From the NCBI RefSeq assembly GCF_000516515.1, contig NZ_KI911784.1:4688633-4752632 (forward strand): 64,000 nucleotides of DNA. The letters are read 5' to 3'. The notes under the pieces were generated by a model, which worked only from the letters and a program-made list of their open reading frames with translations, did not search any database and was not told the DNA's origin. This DNA comes from Chloroflexus sp. Y-396-1. GTDB taxonomy: Bacteria; Chloroflexota; Chloroflexia; Chloroflexales; Chloroflexaceae. This document shows, piece by piece, positions 54,067 to 60,089 of the stretch. Numbering within the stretch: position 1 is the first letter of the stretch; each line of letters begins with the position of its first letter. The position numbers and the translations under genes were made by a program.

Positions 54067-55023
54067 TTACGATCTAGACCTACGGTGAGCAGCAAAAGCA
54101 ACCAGTGTATGCCAGATTGCAACCGCAGCCAGTCGAGCCGTGCGATCATCGAGGTCGTATTGCGGGTTCAGTTCACTGAACTCGATCAAGCGAGTACGTG
54201 GTTCGGCGCCGGCTAACGCTGCCAAGGCAACCAGTTCATCACCGCGCATCCCCAGCGGGTTGGGAGCGCTAACTCCAGGAGCTTCTGCCGCCTGTACAAC
54301 ATCAAGATCAAACCCCCACCCGATACTTGTGGCATCACTGGTCGCAAGCATTGTCCGCATCGTATCGGCAACACCATAATGACGTGCAGTGTTCAACTCG
54401 ACAATAGTTGCCCCTCGTTCACGAAGATACTCGGTGTAAGCAGGGGCATTGGCAAACGGTTGTACCCCAAACACCCAATACCGGTGTGGATCAATGAAGC
54501 CACCTTCAATCAATTGCCGGTACGGTGTGCCGCTATTCGCTGGTTGATCGGCGCGCACATCGTAGTGGGCGTCGATGTTTATTGCCAGTGTTGGTGACGG
54601 CGCAACTGACGCCAATGCTGCCATGTCGGGAAAACTAATATCATTTCCTCCGCCCAGCGAAATCAACAGCTTTCCATCGGCGATAATACGTGCTGCCAGG
54701 CACCGTAACCGGTCGTGGATCGCTTCCAGATCACCTTCAGTTGAAACATCGCCAAGGTCGCAGATGGTCGTGTCGGTGAGACCGGCAATACCGAGGCGAT
54801 ACAACCACCGCCGAATAGCAGTTGGTCCCTGGGCAGCACCGGGGCGACCACGGTTGCGACGCACACCTATGTCTTGCGGGCAGGCGAGGATGACGACCTG
54901 GGCAGCATCATAAGCGGCCATACCGGGCCTAACGATTTCGCCCAGGCGCTGGTCGTAGGGATCATTACGGCGGTAAAAAAGATCACTCGCCGGTAGCTGT
55001 AGATATGACCACGGTTCGTTCAC
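54067..55023 (-). CDS. Ureohydrolase, formimidoglutamase-like
   Basis: 318 residues, GTG start at 55023 overlapping the upstream stop by 4 bases (GTGA). Arginase fold: LSLGGGNDIS, NIDAHYDVR (Mn ligands D151, H153, D155), NSGTPYRQL (as in HutG), and GFDLDVVQAAEAPGVSAPNPLG. It would hydrolyse N-formimino-glutamate to glutamate and formamide. The first Mn ligand, normally His in GGGH/GGDH, is Asn127. No other hut gene is nearby. Substrate is therefore tentative. Confidence 0.75.
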   Translation of the reverse strand: MNEPWSYLQLPASDLFYRRNDPYDQRLGEIVRPGMAAYDAAQVVILACPQDIGVRRNRGRPGAAQGPTAIRRWLYRLGIAGLTDTTICDLGDVSTEGDLEAIHDRLRCLAARIIADGKLLISLGGGNDISFPDMAALASVAPSPTLAINIDAHYDVRADQPANSGTPYRQLIEGGFIDPHRYWVFGVQPFANAPAYTEYLRERGATIVELNTARHYGVADTMRTMLATSDATSIGWGFDLDVVQAAEAPGVSAPNPLGMRGDELVALAALAGAEPRTRLIEFSELNPQYDLDDRTARLAAVAIWHTLVAFAAHRRSRS

Positions 55024-55265
55024 TGGCGGAAGAAATCGATAACCTGACTGCGTTCCTCTTCACTTGGCATCAATTCGATGAACGTTATGCGGTGCCAGGG
55101 AAAGATAACAGCCTGGACACCGGCCGCCAGATACGGTACCGGTTTACCGTCGCGCTTGCGCATATTGGTCACCTTTATGAAGAGATCACCAGGCTGGGGC
55201 TCTTGATCAATATCGGCCAGCAGCGGATCCTCGCCGGTAAGATGAAGAATAACTGTTTTCGGCAT
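55020..55265 (-). CDS. 81-residue conserved-looking protein, unknown function
   Basis: From ATG 55265 with GGAGG eight bases upstream. Beta-rich: MPKTVILHLTGEDPLLADI then PGDLFIKVTNMRKRDGKPVPYL and AVIFPWHRITFIELMP. A small beta-barrel (Sm-like or PilZ-like size) is possible, but I do not recognise the family. It is translationally coupled to the ureohydrolase and lies 31 bases downstream of the FHA gene, so it is placed within the signalling operon. Confidence 0.6.
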   Translation of the reverse strand: MPKTVILHLTGEDPLLADIDQEPQPGDLFIKVTNMRKRDGKPVPYLAAGVQAVIFPWHRITFIELMPSEEERSQVIDFFRQ

Positions 55266-55296
55266 AGAGAAGCCTCCGCAAACGAAATGTGTCACG

Positions 55297-55818
55297 TTAT
55301 CCGTTCATTTCAAACCGTACTAGTAACATCCCAAGTTGTATCTCATCGCCGTGATGCAACTCAACAGGCCGACGCGGAGCTATCCGTTGACGATTGAGGA
55401 ACGTTCCGTTGGAACTGCCCAAATCTTCAAGCAGATACATCCCATCACGACAGATAATGCGGGCATGTTGACGTGAAACACCGGCATCGTATCCACCATC
55501 AAGACTCAAATCCACATCAGGGAAGAAGTTCCGCTGCTGATCTTTACGCCCAATTAAGAGTTCAGGTGTAACCGGTAAGACAATTCGCCGACCCGAACTC
55601 AGCACGACCAGAGCGATCGTGTTCGTTTCGGGCGCCGGTGTTGGTGCAGGTAAGATGGTTGCTTCATCAACCGCTGCCTGAGTGGTTTCGGCAGCCGCAC
55701 GGTTGAGTGAAGCCGTTGTTTGCCGCTGAGGTTTTGTGCTCAGCAAACTGGCACCACACACTGTACAAAAGATTGTCCCGTCGAGTTGTTGAGCCTGACA
55801 GTGGCTACAAATCACCAT
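55297..55818 (-). CDS. Zinc-ribbon FHA domain protein
   Basis: 173 residues. Residues 4-22 form a zinc ribbon (CSHC and CTVC). A linker with several Thr follows (QTTASLN, AAAETTQAAVDEATILP). The FHA domain (about 80-170) has the phosphothreonine-binding pattern LLIGRKDQQ, SLDGGYDAGVSRQHARI and LEDLGSSNGTFLN, so Arg, Ser, His and Asn are all in place. It should bind pThr peptides. It follows the VWA gene by 17 bases. The kinase and PP2C upstream carry candidate ligand motifs. Confidence 0.88.
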   Translation of the reverse strand: MVICSHCQAQQLDGTIFCTVCGASLLSTKPQRQTTASLNRAAAETTQAAVDEATILPAPTPAPETNTIALVVLSSGRRIVLPVTPELLIGRKDQQRNFFPDVDLSLDGGYDAGVSRQHARIICRDGMYLLEDLGSSNGTFLNRQRIAPRRPVELHHGDEIQLGMLLVRFEMNG

Positions 55819-55835
55819 GAGCTGTCTACTCCAGG

Positions 55836-57092
55836 TTATGATTGTCCTTCGCGCCCGATCAAACCACGAGTACCATATTTGATCCGCTTACGACCTTCAG
55901 CACTTGCTTGCCCAGAGCGTAGCAGGCGGGTCGCTTCTTCCTGAACAGTACGCGCCAGTTCAATTTCACCAGCCTCAAACAGTCTCGTTCCGGCCATTTG
56001 CAAGCGACGAGTTGCCTCTTCGAGTTTTCCTTCCTCGGCGGCCTGCCAGGCACTAGCCTGGAGACGGTAGGCGACTAACCGTTCTAACCAGTGTTTTACC
56101 GTTGGATCGACTTCAGATGCAACTTCATCAGGATTGCGTACTCCCACGACCAGATTCTGTTCGTGATTTGCCGTTGTACCCTCGCTACCCGGCACGCGGT
56201 AACGAAGTTGGAGGCGCAGCATAGTGTGCCGACCAACCGGTAAGGGGGGAACCACAATTTCCATCAGGAGAGCCTGAGCATCACTTTCCGGCCAATCACC
56301 GAGGGCCGCCGTCCAGGCGAAATCGGCCTCTTCAATGATGGGTAGGGGGCCGATGTACGGACGCACCCGATCAAGCGAGCGAAGTAAACCCTGTGGCGGT
56401 AACGTCGCCCGCAGTTGAACATCCTGAGCAAAGATGTTGTGCATACGCTCGACCTCAGCGGTAAAGATTTTCGTAATCTCAGCCGCTGAAGTAATGTAAT
56501 GGGTACGACTATTCTCACGGGCAGCAATCGTTTCGAGCAGGTCTTCATTCCACTCGCTCCCGATACCAAGAGCGGTGATCCCAATACCCCGCGCCTGAGC
56601 ACGCCGGGCAATCTCAACACAACGTCCTTCATCGCCGTAGGTACGTCCATCGGTAAGCAACAACAACCGATGAATAGCGCGCGGCATCATTGCCCGCTGC
56701 AACTCTTGTAACCCCAACGCCAGACCGGTTGCCATTTCGGTGCCACCAGCCGCTTCAATCGCACTAATCTGACGCTTGATTTCAGCTCGCGCCCGTGCCA
56801 GTTGCGCCGGGACCACCACTTCAGCCCGATCATTGAACGTGACCAGCGCAAAGCTCTCGTGATCGCCAAGCAGATCAAGAATCTGCATCGCGGCCTGCTT
56901 AACCTGTTGGAGCCGTTCGCCGCGCATTGATGAACTGCGGTCAATCACTAGACATAGGTTGAGTGGGAGTCGTGGCATTTTCGTTGCACCACTTTGGGCT
57001 GATAGCTCAATGAGGGCATAGAGGAGCTGTGGCTCCTGACTGGCTGGCAGTACACTACGACTCGGTGTGATGCGTAGATCAACCTTACTCAT
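55836..57092 (-). CDS. VWA-domain protein (TerY-like context)
   Basis: 418 residues. The VWA domain starts LCLVIDRSSSMRGERLQQ (intact MIDAS DxSxS), with FALVTFNDRAEVV, GTEMATGLALGL and LLLTDGRTYGDEG. A beta-rich VIT-like region and a helical C-terminus (WQAAEEGKLEEATRRLQMAG) follow. No signal peptide or membrane helix, so cytoplasmic. Its ATG overlaps the PP2C stop by 4 bases. VWA + PP2C + kinase triads are known in Ter-type phosphoregulatory systems. Confidence 0.87.
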   Translation of the reverse strand: MSKVDLRITPSRSVLPASQEPQLLYALIELSAQSGATKMPRLPLNLCLVIDRSSSMRGERLQQVKQAAMQILDLLGDHESFALVTFNDRAEVVVPAQLARARAEIKRQISAIEAAGGTEMATGLALGLQELQRAMMPRAIHRLLLLTDGRTYGDEGRCVEIARRAQARGIGITALGIGSEWNEDLLETIAARENSRTHYITSAAEITKIFTAEVERMHNIFAQDVQLRATLPPQGLLRSLDRVRPYIGPLPIIEEADFAWTAALGDWPESDAQALLMEIVVPPLPVGRHTMLRLQLRYRVPGSEGTTANHEQNLVVGVRNPDEVASEVDPTVKHWLERLVAYRLQASAWQAAEEGKLEEATRRLQMAGTRLFEAGEIELARTVQEEATRLLRSGQASAEGRKRIKYGTRGLIGREGQS

Positions 57093-58045
57093 AGCGCCCC
57101 CTCATCGAGCGGCAACGAAACGACTACCACTGAAATATTATCGTCACCGCCAGCCAGGTTGGCTAATGCGATTAGCTCACGGCAGACATCGTATGGCCAG
57201 GGACTATGCAGAAGGGCCTGTTCGATAGCTTTCTCTTCGACTAGACTCCACAGGCCATCGCTGCACAGCACCAGGTGCGAACAATTGTTTAACTGGTGGT
57301 ACACAAAATCAACAGCAACGTGAGGCTGTTGACCAACGGTACGATAAAGCTGATTGCGCAGTGGATGTTCACGAGCTTCTTCCGGATCGAGCTGACCCAG
57401 CGCGATGAGCCGTCCAACGGTTGAATGGTCAGTCGTAAGTTGACGCAGACCAGCCGGTTCGTAAACATAACAACGTGAGTCACCGACATGGGCAACGTAC
57501 AAGCCGTTGCCGATGACCAGCGCAGCAGTACAGGTGGTGCCCATATCTGAACCGGCAGCCTGAGCTTCCCGCCAGATCACTGCATTTGCCTCTTGTACTG
57601 CCTCGATCATCAACGGTTGCAACGCCTCAATGATACCATCTTCGATCACCGGTAATACCAGTCGCTCAAGCACACTGGTCAGCACCGTTTGTACCGCCAA
57701 CCGGCTGGCAACCTCACCACCGCGGTGTCCACCCATTCCATCGGCGACGACAAATAAGCCCACCGTTACGTCTTGCCCTTCCCGTGGTACGGTCATGATG
57801 GTTGCCAGGGCACAATCTTGATTCATTTCGCGTACTCGCCCAATATCACGGAGAGCGGCTGCCGCGAAACCTTGCGCTGAGCCTCGGAACGTCAACGCTG
57901 GTTGATAATCTTGCCCTATCTGACGAGTTCCATCCTCTTCAGGAGGGGTTAGAGCAAGTTGCCGCTGACGTTCAGCTTCAATATCAGTTAAACTGAGTGG
58001 TTCAGTTGGCGTTTCATCTGGTGAAGATAGTGTTTCATCTGGCAT
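57089..58045 (-). CDS. PP2C-family Ser/Thr protein phosphatase
   Basis: 318 residues from ATG 58045; a GTG at 58054 is too close to AAGGGG. The N-terminal tail has the EEDGTRQI peptide at about residue 40. PP2C motifs: GRVREMNQDCAL, FVVADGMGGHRGGE (metal Asp), TTCTAALVIG, YVAHVGDSRCYV, LCSDGLWSLVEE and GGDDNISVVVV. No membrane segment. It dephosphorylates the partner kinase's substrates. It starts 28 bases after the kinase stop and overlaps the VWA gene. Confidence 0.92.
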   Translation of the reverse strand: MPDETLSSPDETPTEPLSLTDIEAERQRQLALTPPEEDGTRQIGQDYQPALTFRGSAQGFAAAALRDIGRVREMNQDCALATIMTVPREGQDVTVGLFVVADGMGGHRGGEVASRLAVQTVLTSVLERLVLPVIEDGIIEALQPLMIEAVQEANAVIWREAQAAGSDMGTTCTAALVIGNGLYVAHVGDSRCYVYEPAGLRQLTTDHSTVGRLIALGQLDPEEAREHPLRNQLYRTVGQQPHVAVDFVYHQLNNCSHLVLCSDGLWSLVEEKAIEQALLHSPWPYDVCRELIALANLAGGDDNISVVVVSLPLDEGAL

Positions 58046-58073
58046 AATCGCCACAACCCCTTGATGAGCCGCT

Positions 58074-60089
58074 TTACGCTTTCAGCGCGTAAAGATGGTG
58101 ATCCATTGACCCAATATACACTACACCGTTCACAATCATCGGTGTTGAAACAATCGCACCTTCGGTGGGATATTTCCAGATGAGCTGTCCATTACCGGCA
58201 TCGAGGCAGTAAACTGCCTGATCGACTGCGCCAAAATAGAGGCGGCCGCCTTCAACTCGTGGTGAGGATGTAATCTGACTACCAACCTCGTACTTCCATA
58301 CCAGACGGCCACTCTTAGTATCGAGCGCGTACATGATTCCATCGACTCCGCCAATAAAAACGCGCGTGCCTACTACACACGGTGACGAGTTAATGTAATG
58401 ACCGGTGCGAAAACGCCAGGCTGGCCAGCCGCCTTCAGCATCAAGGGCATAGAGGTTCTGATCAAGTGAGCCAACAAAGACGAGACCGTCGCTGTATGCT
58501 GGCGATGAGCGAACCGGCTGTTGCGTGCGCTGCTTCCACTTCACCGCGCCAGTCCGCGCATCGAGACAATAGACGTTACCGTCATCACCACCAATGAAAA
58601 TAGAGTTGCCGCTGATACACGCCGAAGAGCGAATAGGGCTCCAGGTCCGATACTTCCAGATCAGTGTGCCACGTAAGCCGTCGATTGCATAGATATGCTG
58701 ATCATCGGAACCAACAAACACAACCCGATCTTCAATCCGGGGTGAAGAGCGGATCGGCTTACCGGTACGGAATGTCCAGCGTACCCCGCCACGGCGCATA
58801 TCGAGGGCGTACAGCGTGCCATCCTCTGAACCGATATAGACCATATCTTGCCAGACAGTGGGTGATGAGCTGATTCCTCCCTCTGTCGCATATTTCCAGC
58901 GGAACTCACCGCGGGTGGCATCGAGGGCATAGATATTTGTGTCGTAGCATCCAACGAACACCAATCCGCCGCTCACAAAGGGTGACGAGCGCACCTCATC
59001 TTCAAACTTAAATCGCCAGACCAGCTCAGTGGTCTGTGCGCCTTTGAGCACAGCCGGTACAGCAACGGTCGTTTTGGCTGTACTAGTACCGGCCAGTGAC
59101 GGAACCTTCAGCAAGGCCTGCCGAAGCTCCTCAGCACTCTGCCAGCGTGCCGCCATATCGTATTCCAGCGCACGGGCTACCACTGCTTCCATTTCAGGTG
59201 ACACTGTCGGGTTAATCTGACGGATCGGACGTTCCTGAAACGTGAAAGGGGTTTCAAGGCGCGGATCAGTGTTGGTTAGCAGATGGTGGAGCGTTGCACC
59301 GAACGCATAGATGTCACCAACCGGTTCAGCAATCCCGCGGTACTGCTCAGGTGGTGAGTAGCCCTCAGTACCGATCATCGTCCCTTTTCGATCACTGCGA
59401 TTGAGAGTGCGGGCAATACCAAAGTCGATCAGTACAATCCGATCATCGCCAACCACCATCACATTGGATGGTTTCATATCGCGGAACACAATTGGCTCAG
59501 GCTTATGGTTGTGTAGGTACGACAGCACGTCGCAAATTTGCAATGCCCAGCGAGCCACTCGTTCTTCATCGAGTGGTTTTCCGTGCTCTTCCAGCACTGT
59601 CTCCAGGTCTTTACCGGGAATGAACTCGAGTACGAGGTAGACTTTGCCGTTCTCTTCAAAAAAGTCATAAACCTTGGGTATGGCAGGATGTTGGAGCGTA
59701 GCGAGCAGGCCAGCTTCGCGTTGAAAGTTTTTCAGGTTGAGCAAACGGGTTTGCGAATCAGGGGCGCTTTGTACCATCTCCTTAATTGCACAGTAACGCA
59801 CCACGTCTTTGAAGCGAAGGTCACGCCCGCGATAGACGACACTCATCCCGCCGATCCCGATCGGTGCTTCGACCTGATAGCGCCCTTGGAGAATCGTGCC
59901 GGGACTGAGCATTGTCGGTGCGACCGGTGCCGACTGCCCGCCTGGTCGCGCTTCGATCTGGCGGGTGCCCTCATCTGCCGCCGGGTGGGCGGTAGGGCTG
60001 ATCTGGCGCGTTCCTTCCTCGGCAGGAGCGCCAACGTCGGGCGGTTGGGTATTGATAGCTTTAGTGCTAACCCGTTTGATCAAACCCAT
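58074..60089 (-). CDS. Ser/Thr protein kinase with C-terminal PQQ-type beta-propeller
   Basis: 671 residues. An N-terminal tail of about 60 residues carries two GTRQI peptides (Thr27, Thr42). The kinase (about 70-330) has GIGGMSVVYRG, K103 in CAIKEM, FRDMKPSN with catalytic D204 (HRD His replaced by Phe), DFG 222-224, and GTEGYSPPEQY. Residues about 356-671 are seven PQQ/WD-type blades of the VRSSPFVSGGLVFVGCYDTNIYALDA pattern. No membrane helix lies between the domains, so the propeller is cytoplasmic, unlike PknD-type receptors. A promoter lies at 60146-60174. It is the first gene of the signalling operon. Confidence 0.92.
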   Translation of the reverse strand: MGLIKRVSTKAINTQPPDVGAPAEEGTRQISPTAHPAADEGTRQIEARPGGQSAPVAPTMLSPGTILQGRYQVEAPIGIGGMSVVYRGRDLRFKDVVRYCAIKEMVQSAPDSQTRLLNLKNFQREAGLLATLQHPAIPKVYDFFEENGKVYLVLEFIPGKDLETVLEEHGKPLDEERVARWALQICDVLSYLHNHKPEPIVFRDMKPSNVMVVGDDRIVLIDFGIARTLNRSDRKGTMIGTEGYSPPEQYRGIAEPVGDIYAFGATLHHLLTNTDPRLETPFTFQERPIRQINPTVSPEMEAVVARALEYDMAARWQSAEELRQALLKVPSLAGTSTAKTTVAVPAVLKGAQTTELVWRFKFEDEVRSSPFVSGGLVFVGCYDTNIYALDATRGEFRWKYATEGGISSSPTVWQDMVYIGSEDGTLYALDMRRGGVRWTFRTGKPIRSSPRIEDRVVFVGSDDQHIYAIDGLRGTLIWKYRTWSPIRSSACISGNSIFIGGDDGNVYCLDARTGAVKWKQRTQQPVRSSPAYSDGLVFVGSLDQNLYALDAEGGWPAWRFRTGHYINSSPCVVGTRVFIGGVDGIMYALDTKSGRLVWKYEVGSQITSSPRVEGGRLYFGAVDQAVYCLDAGNGQLIWKYPTEGAIVSTPMIVNGVVYIGSMDHHLYALKA

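Follow-up and report, generated by a model that had tools for sequence, protein, structure and literature searches.

The window analysed here, a stretch of 64,000 nucleotides from Chloroflexus sp. Y-396-1 (contig NZ_KI911784.1), contains an operon on the reverse strand that encodes, in order, a Ser/Thr kinase, a PP2C-type phosphatase, a VWA protein, a zinc-ribbon FHA protein and a small protein of 91 residues (Table 1). This order is kept in 55 of 63 loci from Chloroflexia and in 20 of 26 loci from more distant Chloroflexota. The kinase comprises an N-terminal tail, a kinase domain (residues 71–321) and a C-terminal PQQ-type β-propeller; inspection of its sequence by eye revealed no transmembrane segment. 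The phosphatase, which may start at a GTG or at an ATG three codons further in, scores 227.6 bits against the NCBIfam Stp1/PP2C model, for which the cut-off is 230. The small protein has no Pfam match even at an E-value of 10. No T6SS genes were recognised by eye among the ORFs between 50 and 64 kb of the window.

Table 1. Features of the operon, in window coordinates.
Feature	Position	Strand	Evidence
Ser/Thr kinase, 671 aa	58074..60089	(-)	ORF; Pfam Pkinase 2.1e-41, beta-propeller 4.6e-80
STKAI, kinase residues 8-12 (Thr9)	60054..60068	(-)	ORF translation
GTRQI within EEGTRQI, kinase residues 26-30 (Thr27)	60000..60014	(-)	ORF translation
GTRQI within DEGTRQI, kinase residues 41-45 (Thr42)	59955..59969	(-)	ORF translation
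PP2C-type phosphatase with N-terminal tail, 321 aa	57089..58054	(-)	ORF; Pfam PP2C_2
TEPL, PP2C tail	57995..58006	(-)	
GTRQI within EEDGTRQI, PP2C tail (Thr43 from GTG, Thr40 from ATG)	57917..57931	(-)	
VWA protein, 418 aa, ArnB-like	55836..57092	(-)	Pfam, alignment, AF2 model, Foldseek
GTRGL within YGTRGL, VWA residues 407-411 (Thr408)	55860..55874	(-)	alignment, AF2
Zinc-ribbon and FHA protein, 173 aa, ArnA-like, putative reader	55297..55818	(-)	Pfam FHA 3.4e-22, Zn_Ribbon_1 9.1e-6
TTASL, zinc-ribbon-to-FHA linker (Thr34, Thr35)	55705..55719	(-)	alignment
FHA domain	55330..55557	(-)	Pfam FHA; pocket residues in alignment
Small protein, 91 aa, conserved gene no. 5	55020..55295	(-)	ORF

Threonine motifs in four proteins of the operon

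A previous, sequence-only reading of this DNA had placed the peptide GTRQI at two positions in the kinase tail and one in the PP2C tail, and the ORF translations bear this out. Two further sites escaped it, at the VWA C-terminus (Thr408) and in the FHA linker (Thr35), and GTRQI itself is not the conserved unit; the element common to all sites is Thr-x-x-Ile/Leu/Met. The STKAI of the kinase is the local form of a conserved start, M-x-L-[I/L]-K-[K/R] followed by Thr within six residues, found at 58 of 61 kinase starts, and the TEPL of the phosphatase belongs to a T-x-P-[LIM] class present in 44 of 62 PP2C tails. Kinase tails carry up to eight copies of the motif, and seven of them have a form with the hydrophobic residue at +4. 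Thr-x-x-[ILM] is absent from 3 of 60 kinase tails and from 3 of 62 PP2C tails, the latter being those of Chloroploca, in which the tail is almost lost; it precedes the FHA domain in 52 of 54 linkers (absent from two), and all four proteins bear it at 43 of 51 readable loci. A D/E-rich lead stands before the kinase motif. The motif also resembles the substrate consensus of bacterial STKs, a point absent from the sequence-only reading.

The GTRQI 5-mer is by itself not rare, since a degenerate DNA pattern for it has 14 matches in the genome against 8 for the reversed control; three of the 14 fall in this operon. The pattern also admits AGY, and among the 8 of 11 outside matches that were examined (L009–L016) seven read GTRQI and one GTSQI, three of the eight lying inside open frames of at least 100 residues. 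The single match of these eight that falls in an N-terminal tail, in SdhA, lacks conservation beyond the genus. Among the 14 kinases of the genome, GTR/STK-type motifs in the N-terminal tail are confined to the operon kinase; in 5 of the 13 others some T-x-x-[ILM] occurs ahead of the domain, within a stretch of at most 110 residues.

The motif T-x-x-[ILM] is short and common in shuffled sequences (about 41 of 60 shuffled kinase tails still hold it), so that its mere presence means little and only its number and offset carry weight. Across the 63 Chloroflexia loci, I/L/M-type hydrophobics at Thr+3 are enriched 2.4–2.6-fold, with 179 occurrences in 60 kinase tails (shuffle mean 68.0, maximum of 1000 shuffles 93) and 145 in 62 PP2C tails (mean 61.5, maximum of 1000 shuffles 84). 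In each set of tails on its own the enrichment is specific for the +3 offset and for Thr over Ser; Ser+3 is not enriched (26 in kinase tails, 26 in PP2C tails), and 278 neighbouring ORFs, with 187 disorder-like segments between them, show no Thr+3 excess in these segments, 69 cases standing against 76.4 after shuffling. With one genome per genus the counts are 79 for kinase tails, 70 for PP2C tails and 37 for the FHA linker, against shuffle means of 33.3, 29.0 and 16.1 (maxima of 1000: 54, 46 and 28). The FHA linkers are less specific, Thr+3 being found 78 times beside Thr+4 56 times and Ser+3 42 times, and a raised Ser+4 value in kinase (0.20) and PP2C tails (0.17) is not fully explained.

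The same rule, derived from Chloroflexia, was then applied to the 26 distant Chloroflexota loci. Here Thr+3 counts are 24 in kinase tails (9.1 expected; Ser+3 count 11), 25 in PP2C tails (13.2 expected; Ser+3 count 13) and 43 in the FHA linker (12.6 expected; Ser+3 count 7). The strictest copy is that of the VWA protein, which ends in GTRGL at all 58 complete Chloroflexia ends and in [YF]GTRx[ILF] at 26 of 26 distant ones (25 with [ILM]); GTR is unchanged in all 36 sequences that were aligned. In split gene sets the separated VWA gene keeps T-x-x-L (GTRGL in G019, GTQRL in G087), as does the kinase tail of G019. The motif thus spans many genera and a second group of Chloroflexota, which disposes of the two objections raised beforehand, absence from related genomes and recent duplication of the tails. 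The VWA protein, previously cast as an adaptor, is not merely that, given its copy of the motif.

Structural relatives of the VWA and FHA proteins

The AF2 model of the VWA protein (pLDDT 91.2) comprises a split β-sandwich, a VWA domain and a C-terminal four-helix bundle. Thr408 lies where the last helix (398–409) ends, ahead of a low-confidence terminus, and the MIDAS residues D51, S53, S55, T118 and D148 are invariant in 36 sequences. The four best Foldseek matches are, in order, 4fx5, 8s05_A, 8s05_B and 5a8j, and the model aligns with ArnB (8S05_A) over 370 residues (VIA Z 31.4, rmsd 4.1). ITIH1 follows with a Z of 24.7, and the inter-alpha-inhibitor chains align over nearly their full length too. 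By sequence, ArnB ranks sixth, through the VWA domain alone and below the inter-alpha-inhibitor chains. The Pfam family ArnB_C was not reached (of 12 members two gave a match, at best with an E of 0.23), the helix bundle searched alone gave no ArnB match, and vWA-TerF-like was matched by 1 of 12 members (0.041). From its modelled fold the VWA protein may work in an ArnB-like manner; we do not class it as a member of the ArnB_C family.

In the FHA domain, the pocket residues G90, R91, S115, R116, H118, N137, G138 and N142 are invariant in 34 sequences and T139 is conserved in at least 90%. The Arg, Ser and Asn/Thr residues expected of a pThr-binding domain are present, and both the intact pocket and the co-occurrence with an FHA gene agree with the earlier proposal. 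So does the preference for a hydrophobic residue at +3, the motif fitting the pTxx[I/L/V] ligand class among the ELM classes quoted in PMC8786283. Of the linker residues, Thr35 alone is invariant in an alignment of 23 sequences, though not in a wider one.

A profile search of the PDB with the FHA protein gives Sulfolobus ArnA (5a8i_A) as best match (6.5e-13), the FHA stretch contributing an i-Evalue of 8.4e-8 and the ribbon stretch a weak 0.18. ArnA is not among the best 50 Foldseek matches listed for the FHA model; the top ones include OdhI, Rv0020c and GarA, and DgcB, with its pThr tail, is also listed. The protein falls below the cut-offs of the OdhI (41.3/200 bits), FhaB (52.1/125) and TagH/VI_FHA (TIGR03354; 48.8/120.25) models, and in the AF2 model its linker is not docked on to the FHA domain (pLDDT about 53).

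A probable ArnAB-like switch and its alternatives

In the archaellum regulatory network of Sulfolobus (PDB 5A8I, 8S05 and the paralogue 5A8J), ArnA uses its FHA domain to bind the C-terminal bundle of ArnB when this is phosphorylated. Common to both systems are a zinc-ribbon FHA partner, a vWA protein of three domains (split β-sandwich, VWA, helix bundle) and an antagonistic kinase and phosphatase. In the ArnB phosphopeptides Ile comes directly after TTRR, which gives T-R-R-I at T344 and T354, and Chloroflexus has T-R-x-L at the predicted site. The precedent is imperfect, since the fast site of ArnB is T353, with Ile at +4 rather than +3; the LIETT copy was unphosphorylated in the same assay, and mutants of the Thr pair retained motility control. 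The Chloroflexus system also differs in that kinase and phosphatase lie in the same operon and both bear the motif, in that the kinase has a β-propeller and the phosphatase is a PP2C, unlike ArnC/ArnD (ArnC having OB and TPR-like parts) and PP2A, and in that the VWA Thr sits right where the bundle ends.

Taken with the observed motif, its offset specificity and conservation, the operon, the pocket residues and the ArnA sequence and ArnB fold matches, this likeness suggests that the Thr-x-x-[I/L/M] peptides are probably phosphorylation-dependent FHA docking sites, in an ArnAB-like switch that comes with a writer and an eraser of its own. In such a switch, with its putative phosphorylation, binding, order of events and output, the operon kinase would phosphorylate Thr in its own tail, the PP2C tail, the VWA GTRGL and the FHA linker; the FHA domain would bind these sites, its specificity set by the hydrophobic residue at +3; and the PP2C would take the marks off. 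The VWA and zinc-ribbon-FHA proteins would form a pair like ArnB and ArnA, loose at first and tight once the VWA C-terminus is phosphorylated, to which the kinase and PP2C tails would bring writer and eraser, several copies per tail giving avidity. The linker copy could compete in cis, as in GarA, OdhI or DgcB, or cross-link in trans. More tentatively, the operon might encode a phospho-hub that assembles itself, all four proteins carrying ligands for the one reader; kinase activity would then drive a multivalent cluster that pulls in its own phosphatase and is thereby self-limiting. On this tentative reading, an ArnAB-like core whose T-R-x-I/L code is related between crenarchaea and Chloroflexota would point to a signalling code that is old or horizontally shared rather than to an archaellum device.

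The enzymes that write and erase the mark, the scaffold and the reader all bear one short peptide in their loose ends, probably the tag that the reader recognises, which gives the set the look of a switch that assembles itself and is akin to the archaeal one. The conserved motif and FHA company foreseen by the sequence-only reading hold, but the copies on the VWA and FHA proteins make an ArnAB-like switch preferable to a new device for gathering kinase and phosphatase. To our knowledge, ligands have been identified for few of the FHA proteins of bacteria; here sequence alone yields a reader together with a precise set of peptides on the operon's kinase, phosphatase and scaffold, conserved in both groups of Chloroflexota. 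This ties an operon of bacteria to the ArnAB switch of archaea, in a genetically compact version whose kinase, phosphatase, vWA and FHA proteins are co-expressible. In the open-access literature (as distinct from subscription papers and preprints), neither operon nor motif appears in any title or abstract opening among the matches listed.

The main rival, though unlikely, is that the motif reflects no more than the substrate preference of the operon kinase, acidic on the N-terminal side of Thr and hydrophobic or Pro-hydrophobic on the C-terminal side, and that phosphorylation of the tails regulates kinase and phosphatase activity directly, FHA binding being unneeded. In PknA-dependent sites of M. 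tuberculosis (PMC7164672), Thr is preceded by acidic residues and followed by Pro at +2 and Leu/Val at +3, which comes close to the T-x-P-L class of the PP2C tails and to the D/E-rich stretch ahead of the kinase motif. A consensus by itself leaves unexplained the invariant linker Thr of the 23-sequence alignment, the invariant VWA C-terminus and the company of a zinc-ribbon FHA gene, and in the Arn precedent the FHA domain does bind the phosphorylated bundle. The two readings are also compatible, as writer and reader may share a consensus.

That the system is no more than an off switch in which the FHA domain takes up its linker (E-T-T-A/T-S-L) in cis, the other tails being unrelated substrates, seems improbable: the linker is similar to the Thr tails by which some FHA proteins bind themselves (tail features in PMC6733907), and the best Foldseek matches include OdhI and GarA, but the Thr+3 enrichment in kinase, PP2C and VWA tails of two groups is then unexplained, and neither the OdhI model score nor the undocked linker agrees. 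Least probable of all is a phospho-independent short linear motif, or a mere bias in the composition of tails rich in acidic residues and Thr, in either case unconnected with FHA, to which the genomic GTRQI count and raised Ser+4 might point, as the excess is for Thr at +3, with none at Ser+3 or in the segments of neighbouring ORFs.

The operon also shares features with other systems. In GarA/OdhI and DgcB a Thr tail stands N-terminal to the FHA domain, with a hydrophobic residue at +3 in DgcB and OdhI; the Chloroflexus protein differs by its zinc ribbon and by the occurrence of the motif on kinase, phosphatase and VWA protein. In T6SS PpkA/PppA/Fha, kinase, phosphatase and FHA protein are likewise described as one regulatory set; here the VWA partner is separate and ArnB-like, and the TagH model score is below cut-off. 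The TerY-P triad consists of the TerY vWA protein, a PP2C and a kinase, and this three-gene neighbourhood is present in the operon, which differs in its extra zinc-ribbon FHA protein and ArnB-like vWA. The VWA and FHA proteins had no match in PADLOC, which may or may not hold TerY-P models; the kinase matched kinase-domain models such as PD-T4-6, and one model was a candidate for the PP2C.

Threonine motifs in the tails of the operon proteins

Both peptides that the sequence-only reading had placed in the kinase tail, EEGTRQI (Thr27) and DEGTRQI (Thr42), are present, as is EEDGTRQI in the tail of the PP2C phosphatase. Further copies are found beyond these: KRIKYGTRGL stands near the terminus of the VWA protein, ahead of a short end, and QTTASL lies in the FHA protein, between its ribbon and FHA domain. 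The kinase N-terminus is MGLIKRVSTKAI; an M-x-L-[I/L]-K-[K/R] start is seen in all 61 readable kinase starts, 58 of which have a Thr among the next six residues. Catalytic HRD/FRD-type and DFG motifs are found in 61 of 62 kinase ORFs.

Genes of the operon in the window
Feature	Position	Strand	Assignment
Kinase ORF	58074-60089	minus	Pfam kinase domain and PQQ-type propeller
PP2C ORF	57089-58054	minus	Pfam PP2C
VWA protein	55836-57092	minus	Pfam VWA
Zinc-ribbon-FHA protein	55297-55818	minus	Pfam zinc ribbon and FHA
91-aa protein	55020-55295	minus	no match in Pfam, NCBIfam or PADLOC

GTRQI by itself is not rare in its own genome, where as a DNA pattern it gives 14 matches compared with 8 for the reversed control. 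Nor is it a conserved unit: although the peptide is shared by the kinase and PP2C tails, its flanks vary between genera, and only the Thr and the +3 residue are constant. Judged by their sequences, the unit common to the operon tails is Thr-x-x-[I/L/M]. With one genome taken per genus, the kinase class has an acidic residue or Gly at −2, G/S/A/T at −1, then T, R/K, any residue and I/L/M; the PP2C classes are T-x-P-L and G-T-R-[Q/P]-L, the FHA linker is frequently E-T-T-[A/T]-[S/A]-L, and the VWA class is Y/F-G-T-R-G-L. Thr35 is the sole invariant linker position in an alignment of 23 FHA sequences. A wider FHA alignment of 34 (the window protein and 33 of 75 sequences, including a distant group) has no invariant linker column, and its FHA pocket residues are invariant. 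Among 36 VWA sequences from two groups (the window protein and 35 of 79), GTR is invariant and Leu411 is at least 90% conserved.

Enrichment and recurrence of the unit

Relatives of the PP2C occur in 149 of the 158 genomes of the class. We read 63 loci: the window's own and, for each of 62 relatives, its top PP2C match, to an E-value limit of 6e-70. Of these, 55 have the complete set of five genes, always in identical order and strand; the other eight stretches are without one or more genes, several of them at contig ends. The sequence-only reading depended on the motif occurring in related genomes, and the unit is indeed found in all four tails at 43 of the 51 loci readable for all four. Tails without it are three from kinases, three from PP2Cs (Chloroploca) and two FHA linkers. 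Seven kinase tails have T-[RK]-[RK]-G-[LI], hydrophobic at +4, and the L095 kinase tail has a +4 repeat form too.

Because the unit is short, its mere presence is weak evidence; after shuffling, about 41 of the 60 kinase tails and 38 of the 62 PP2C tails still contain it. The counts are more telling. I/L/M stands at Thr+3 179 times in 60 kinase tails (L073, L090 and L095 dropped), against a shuffled mean of 68.0 and maximum of 93, with 33–55 at the other offsets from +1 to +8. In 62 PP2C tails (L073 dropped; start codons estimated) it does so 145 times, against 61.5 (maximum 84) by shuffling and 36–84 at other offsets, and in 54 FHA linkers 78 times, against 33.7 (maximum 51) and 13–56. These linkers exclude L065, L067, L068 and L101, where the pattern was not found, and L051, L064, L066, L078 and L102, whose stretches are without FHA. 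All 58 VWA ends carry the unit, leaving out two that are cut (L051, L102) and three outside the stretch (L064, L066, L078). Ser+3 counts are 26, 26, 42 and 0 for kinase, PP2C, FHA linker and VWA, which makes the FHA linker the least specific tail. The effect persists with one genome for each of 31 genera (79 against 33.3 by shuffling for kinase, 70 against 29.0 for PP2C, 37 against 16.1 for FHA linkers), and is not found in 187 disorder-like segments of neighbouring ORFs, taken as longest-ORF picks (69 against 76.4). The controls on offset, on Ser+3 and on neighbouring ORFs reject a chance origin. There is also an excess at Ser+4 in kinase (76/388) and PP2C (93/558) tails, and in kinase tails a Ser often stands before the motif Thr.

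Scanning genomes with an alignment of 12 VWA sequences yielded 80 loci, the best 80 of 247 relatives, among which 26 (L166–L191) hold the same operon. Their titles include Anaerolineales, Thermoflexales and Ardenticatenales, or Chloroflexi bacterium only. The five genes are in order in 20 of the 26, and in the remaining six, genes are missing or the contig is cut. The motif rule had been set on Chloroflexia, with tail windows of 60 and 42 residues and a VWA pattern allowing Phe chosen after viewing the tails; on these terms T+3 counts are 24 against 9.1 for 18 of the 26 kinase tails and 43 against 12.6 for 25 FHA linkers (each reached in 0 of 2000 shuffles), and 25 against 13.2 for 24 PP2C tails (4 of 2000). 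Ser+3 counts are 11, 7 and 13 respectively. Thinning similar tails leaves 21 against 7.7, 27 against 8.5 and, for PP2C, 25 against 12.3. VWA ends match [YF]GTRx[ILF] in all 26 loci, and in 25 with [ILM]. Eight kinase tails were left out, five as absent or cut and three for a mis-set domain start; the latter (L174, L180, L184) show LTTRQL, STQQI and DTHRI by eye. Recent duplication, which would have undercut the sequence-only reading, is rejected, since the tails diverge strongly from genus to genus and this distant group shows the pattern again.

Two genomes, G019 and G087, have a split set. In G019 the VWA, FHA and small-protein genes are located elsewhere in the genome, with GTRGL in the VWA protein and DTTTTL in the FHA linker, and the kinase tail holds repeats of the ETGTVGL type; in G087 the VWA end is HYGTQRL, the FHA linker has TGPI and the kinase tail has GTRPV repeats, with Val at +3. 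The 91-aa protein is a conserved fifth operon gene in both Chloroflexota groups. One contig titled Candidatus Gracilibacteria (L127) has a VWA gene with 68% identity to that of the window, and its assembly is probably mis-binned or mislabelled.

A phosphothreonine reading and its likeness to ArnAB

We consider it fairly probable that Thr-x-x-[I/L/M] sites are marked by the operon kinase, bound by the FHA protein and cleared of the mark by the PP2C, with phosphorylation, binding and output all predicted. The kinase would mark itself, the PP2C, the VWA protein and the FHA linker, the FHA protein would bind the marked Thr sites, the PP2C would reverse the marks, and the propeller may sense input. 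Published work lists pTxx[I/L/V] as one of two FHA ligand classes (PMC8786283) and describes a Bdellovibrio FHA domain that accommodates, in a depression, the +3 Val of its pThr ligand (PMC6733907). More tentative is a multivalent phospho-hub, in which kinase, PP2C, VWA and FHA proteins all carry ligands of one reader domain. Our confidence in both is slightly lowered, and that in the rivals raised to match, because the fast site of Sulfolobus ArnB, T353, has Ile at +4.

The strongest rival, that the unit is a substrate consensus of the operon kinase only, seems unlikely to us. PknA-dependent sites of M. tuberculosis combine acidic residues on the N-terminal side of the Thr with Pro at +2 and Leu/Val at +3 (PMC7164672). 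A pure kinase consensus agrees best with the PP2C motif class and least well with the invariant positions of the VWA protein and FHA linker. One consensus may also serve both kinase and FHA reader.

By profile, the best solved relative of the FHA protein is the Sulfolobus zinc-ribbon-FHA protein ArnA (6.5e-13; FHA stretch 8.4e-8, ribbon stretch 0.18), with other FHA domains closely behind. By fold, the 50 listed Foldseek matches are led by OdhI, Rv0020c and GarA, and ArnA is not among them. Docking of the linker on to the FHA domain is not seen in the AF2 model, and the protein falls below the cut-off for the FhaB, OdhI and TagH models. The VWA profile finds Catenulispora 4FX5 at 1.7e-18 and ArnB, the vWA partner of ArnA, sixth (8S05_A, 1.3e-11, VWA domain only), below inter-alpha-inhibitor chains and a mussel protein. 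Its AF2 model (pLDDT 91.2) comprises a split β-sandwich, the VWA domain and a four-helix bundle, with GTR at the C-terminal end of the final helix (398–409), ahead of a low-confidence end. The top four Foldseek matches are 4FX5, ArnB twice and an ArnB paralogue; VIA gives Z of 37.9, 31.4 (370 aligned, rmsd 4.1) and 26.5 for the three in that order, followed by inter-alpha-inhibitor heavy chain 1 (24.7, residues 1–403). The bundle alone does not match ArnB by sequence, and Pfam ArnB_C is not reached by the VWA protein.

ArnB peptides phosphorylated in cells include RMELIETTRR (337–346), ISESIETTRR (347–356) and IGTVEQTR (357–364), according to PMC6509490; joined by numbering, T344 and T354 would in our reading be T-R-R-I. 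PMC12852372, by contrast, finds that the kinase ArnC phosphorylates T353, T363 and T375 first and that the LIETT copy is not phosphorylated. The same paper has the ArnA ribbon holding ArnB loosely and the FHA domain binding the phosphorylated bundle, with short-time binding lower in T353A/T354A and T359A/T363A and the sites redundant. PP2A and ArnC both act on the ArnA/ArnB complex (PMC7472852). The operon is similar to ArnAB in its composition, in the fold of the VWA protein and in the type of site. It differs in kinase, phosphatase and the unreached ArnB_C, and we therefore describe it as an ArnAB-like new variant. ArnAB supports the architecture and site type, and less so the exact +3 rule, because of the +4 Ile of T353 and the unphosphorylated LIETT copy.

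Related proteins in the same genome

GTR/STK-type N-tail motifs are confined to the operon kinase among the 14 kinases found in the genome; in the 110 or fewer residues preceding the domain, some T-x-x-[ILM] occurs in five of the remaining 13. Comparison with PADLOC matched kinase-domain models (PD-T4-6, mad6, MkoA and C3a189 are among the 25 listed of 33 matches) and one PP2C candidate, with none for VWA or FHA, and a defence-system reading is rejected. A succinate dehydrogenase-type flavoprotein, SdhA (L012/L234–L263, by eye), has an N-tail GTRQI in this genome and GTRQV in seven genus mates, so that GTRQ[I/V] is kept in all eight genus rows. Outside the genus the Thr is kept in 2 of 22 rows, by eye (loci from 30 of 41 genomes), and SdhA was rejected as a downstream ligand.

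A second set lies at L110:1045-5298 (genome 4003044-4007297), with two zinc-ribbon PP2Cs, a zinc-ribbon kinase, a VWA protein and a zinc-ribbon FHA protein by eye. Its VWA end is LRYATRRL, and YATR[RK]L is kept in 18 of 19 relatives viewed. In the FHA protein there, EAPTVIAPP is repeated 11 times within a single stretch, with Ile at Thr+2, not +3. A third VWA paralogue (L214:5376-6743) ends in GRKTVRLTD, a T-x-x-L, and no kinase, PP2C or FHA gene was recognised beside it by eye. By eye, the kinase at L199 (630187-630822) continues C-terminally into zinc-ribbon and FHA domains, the FHA match at 629524-629748 placing writer and reader in one chain.
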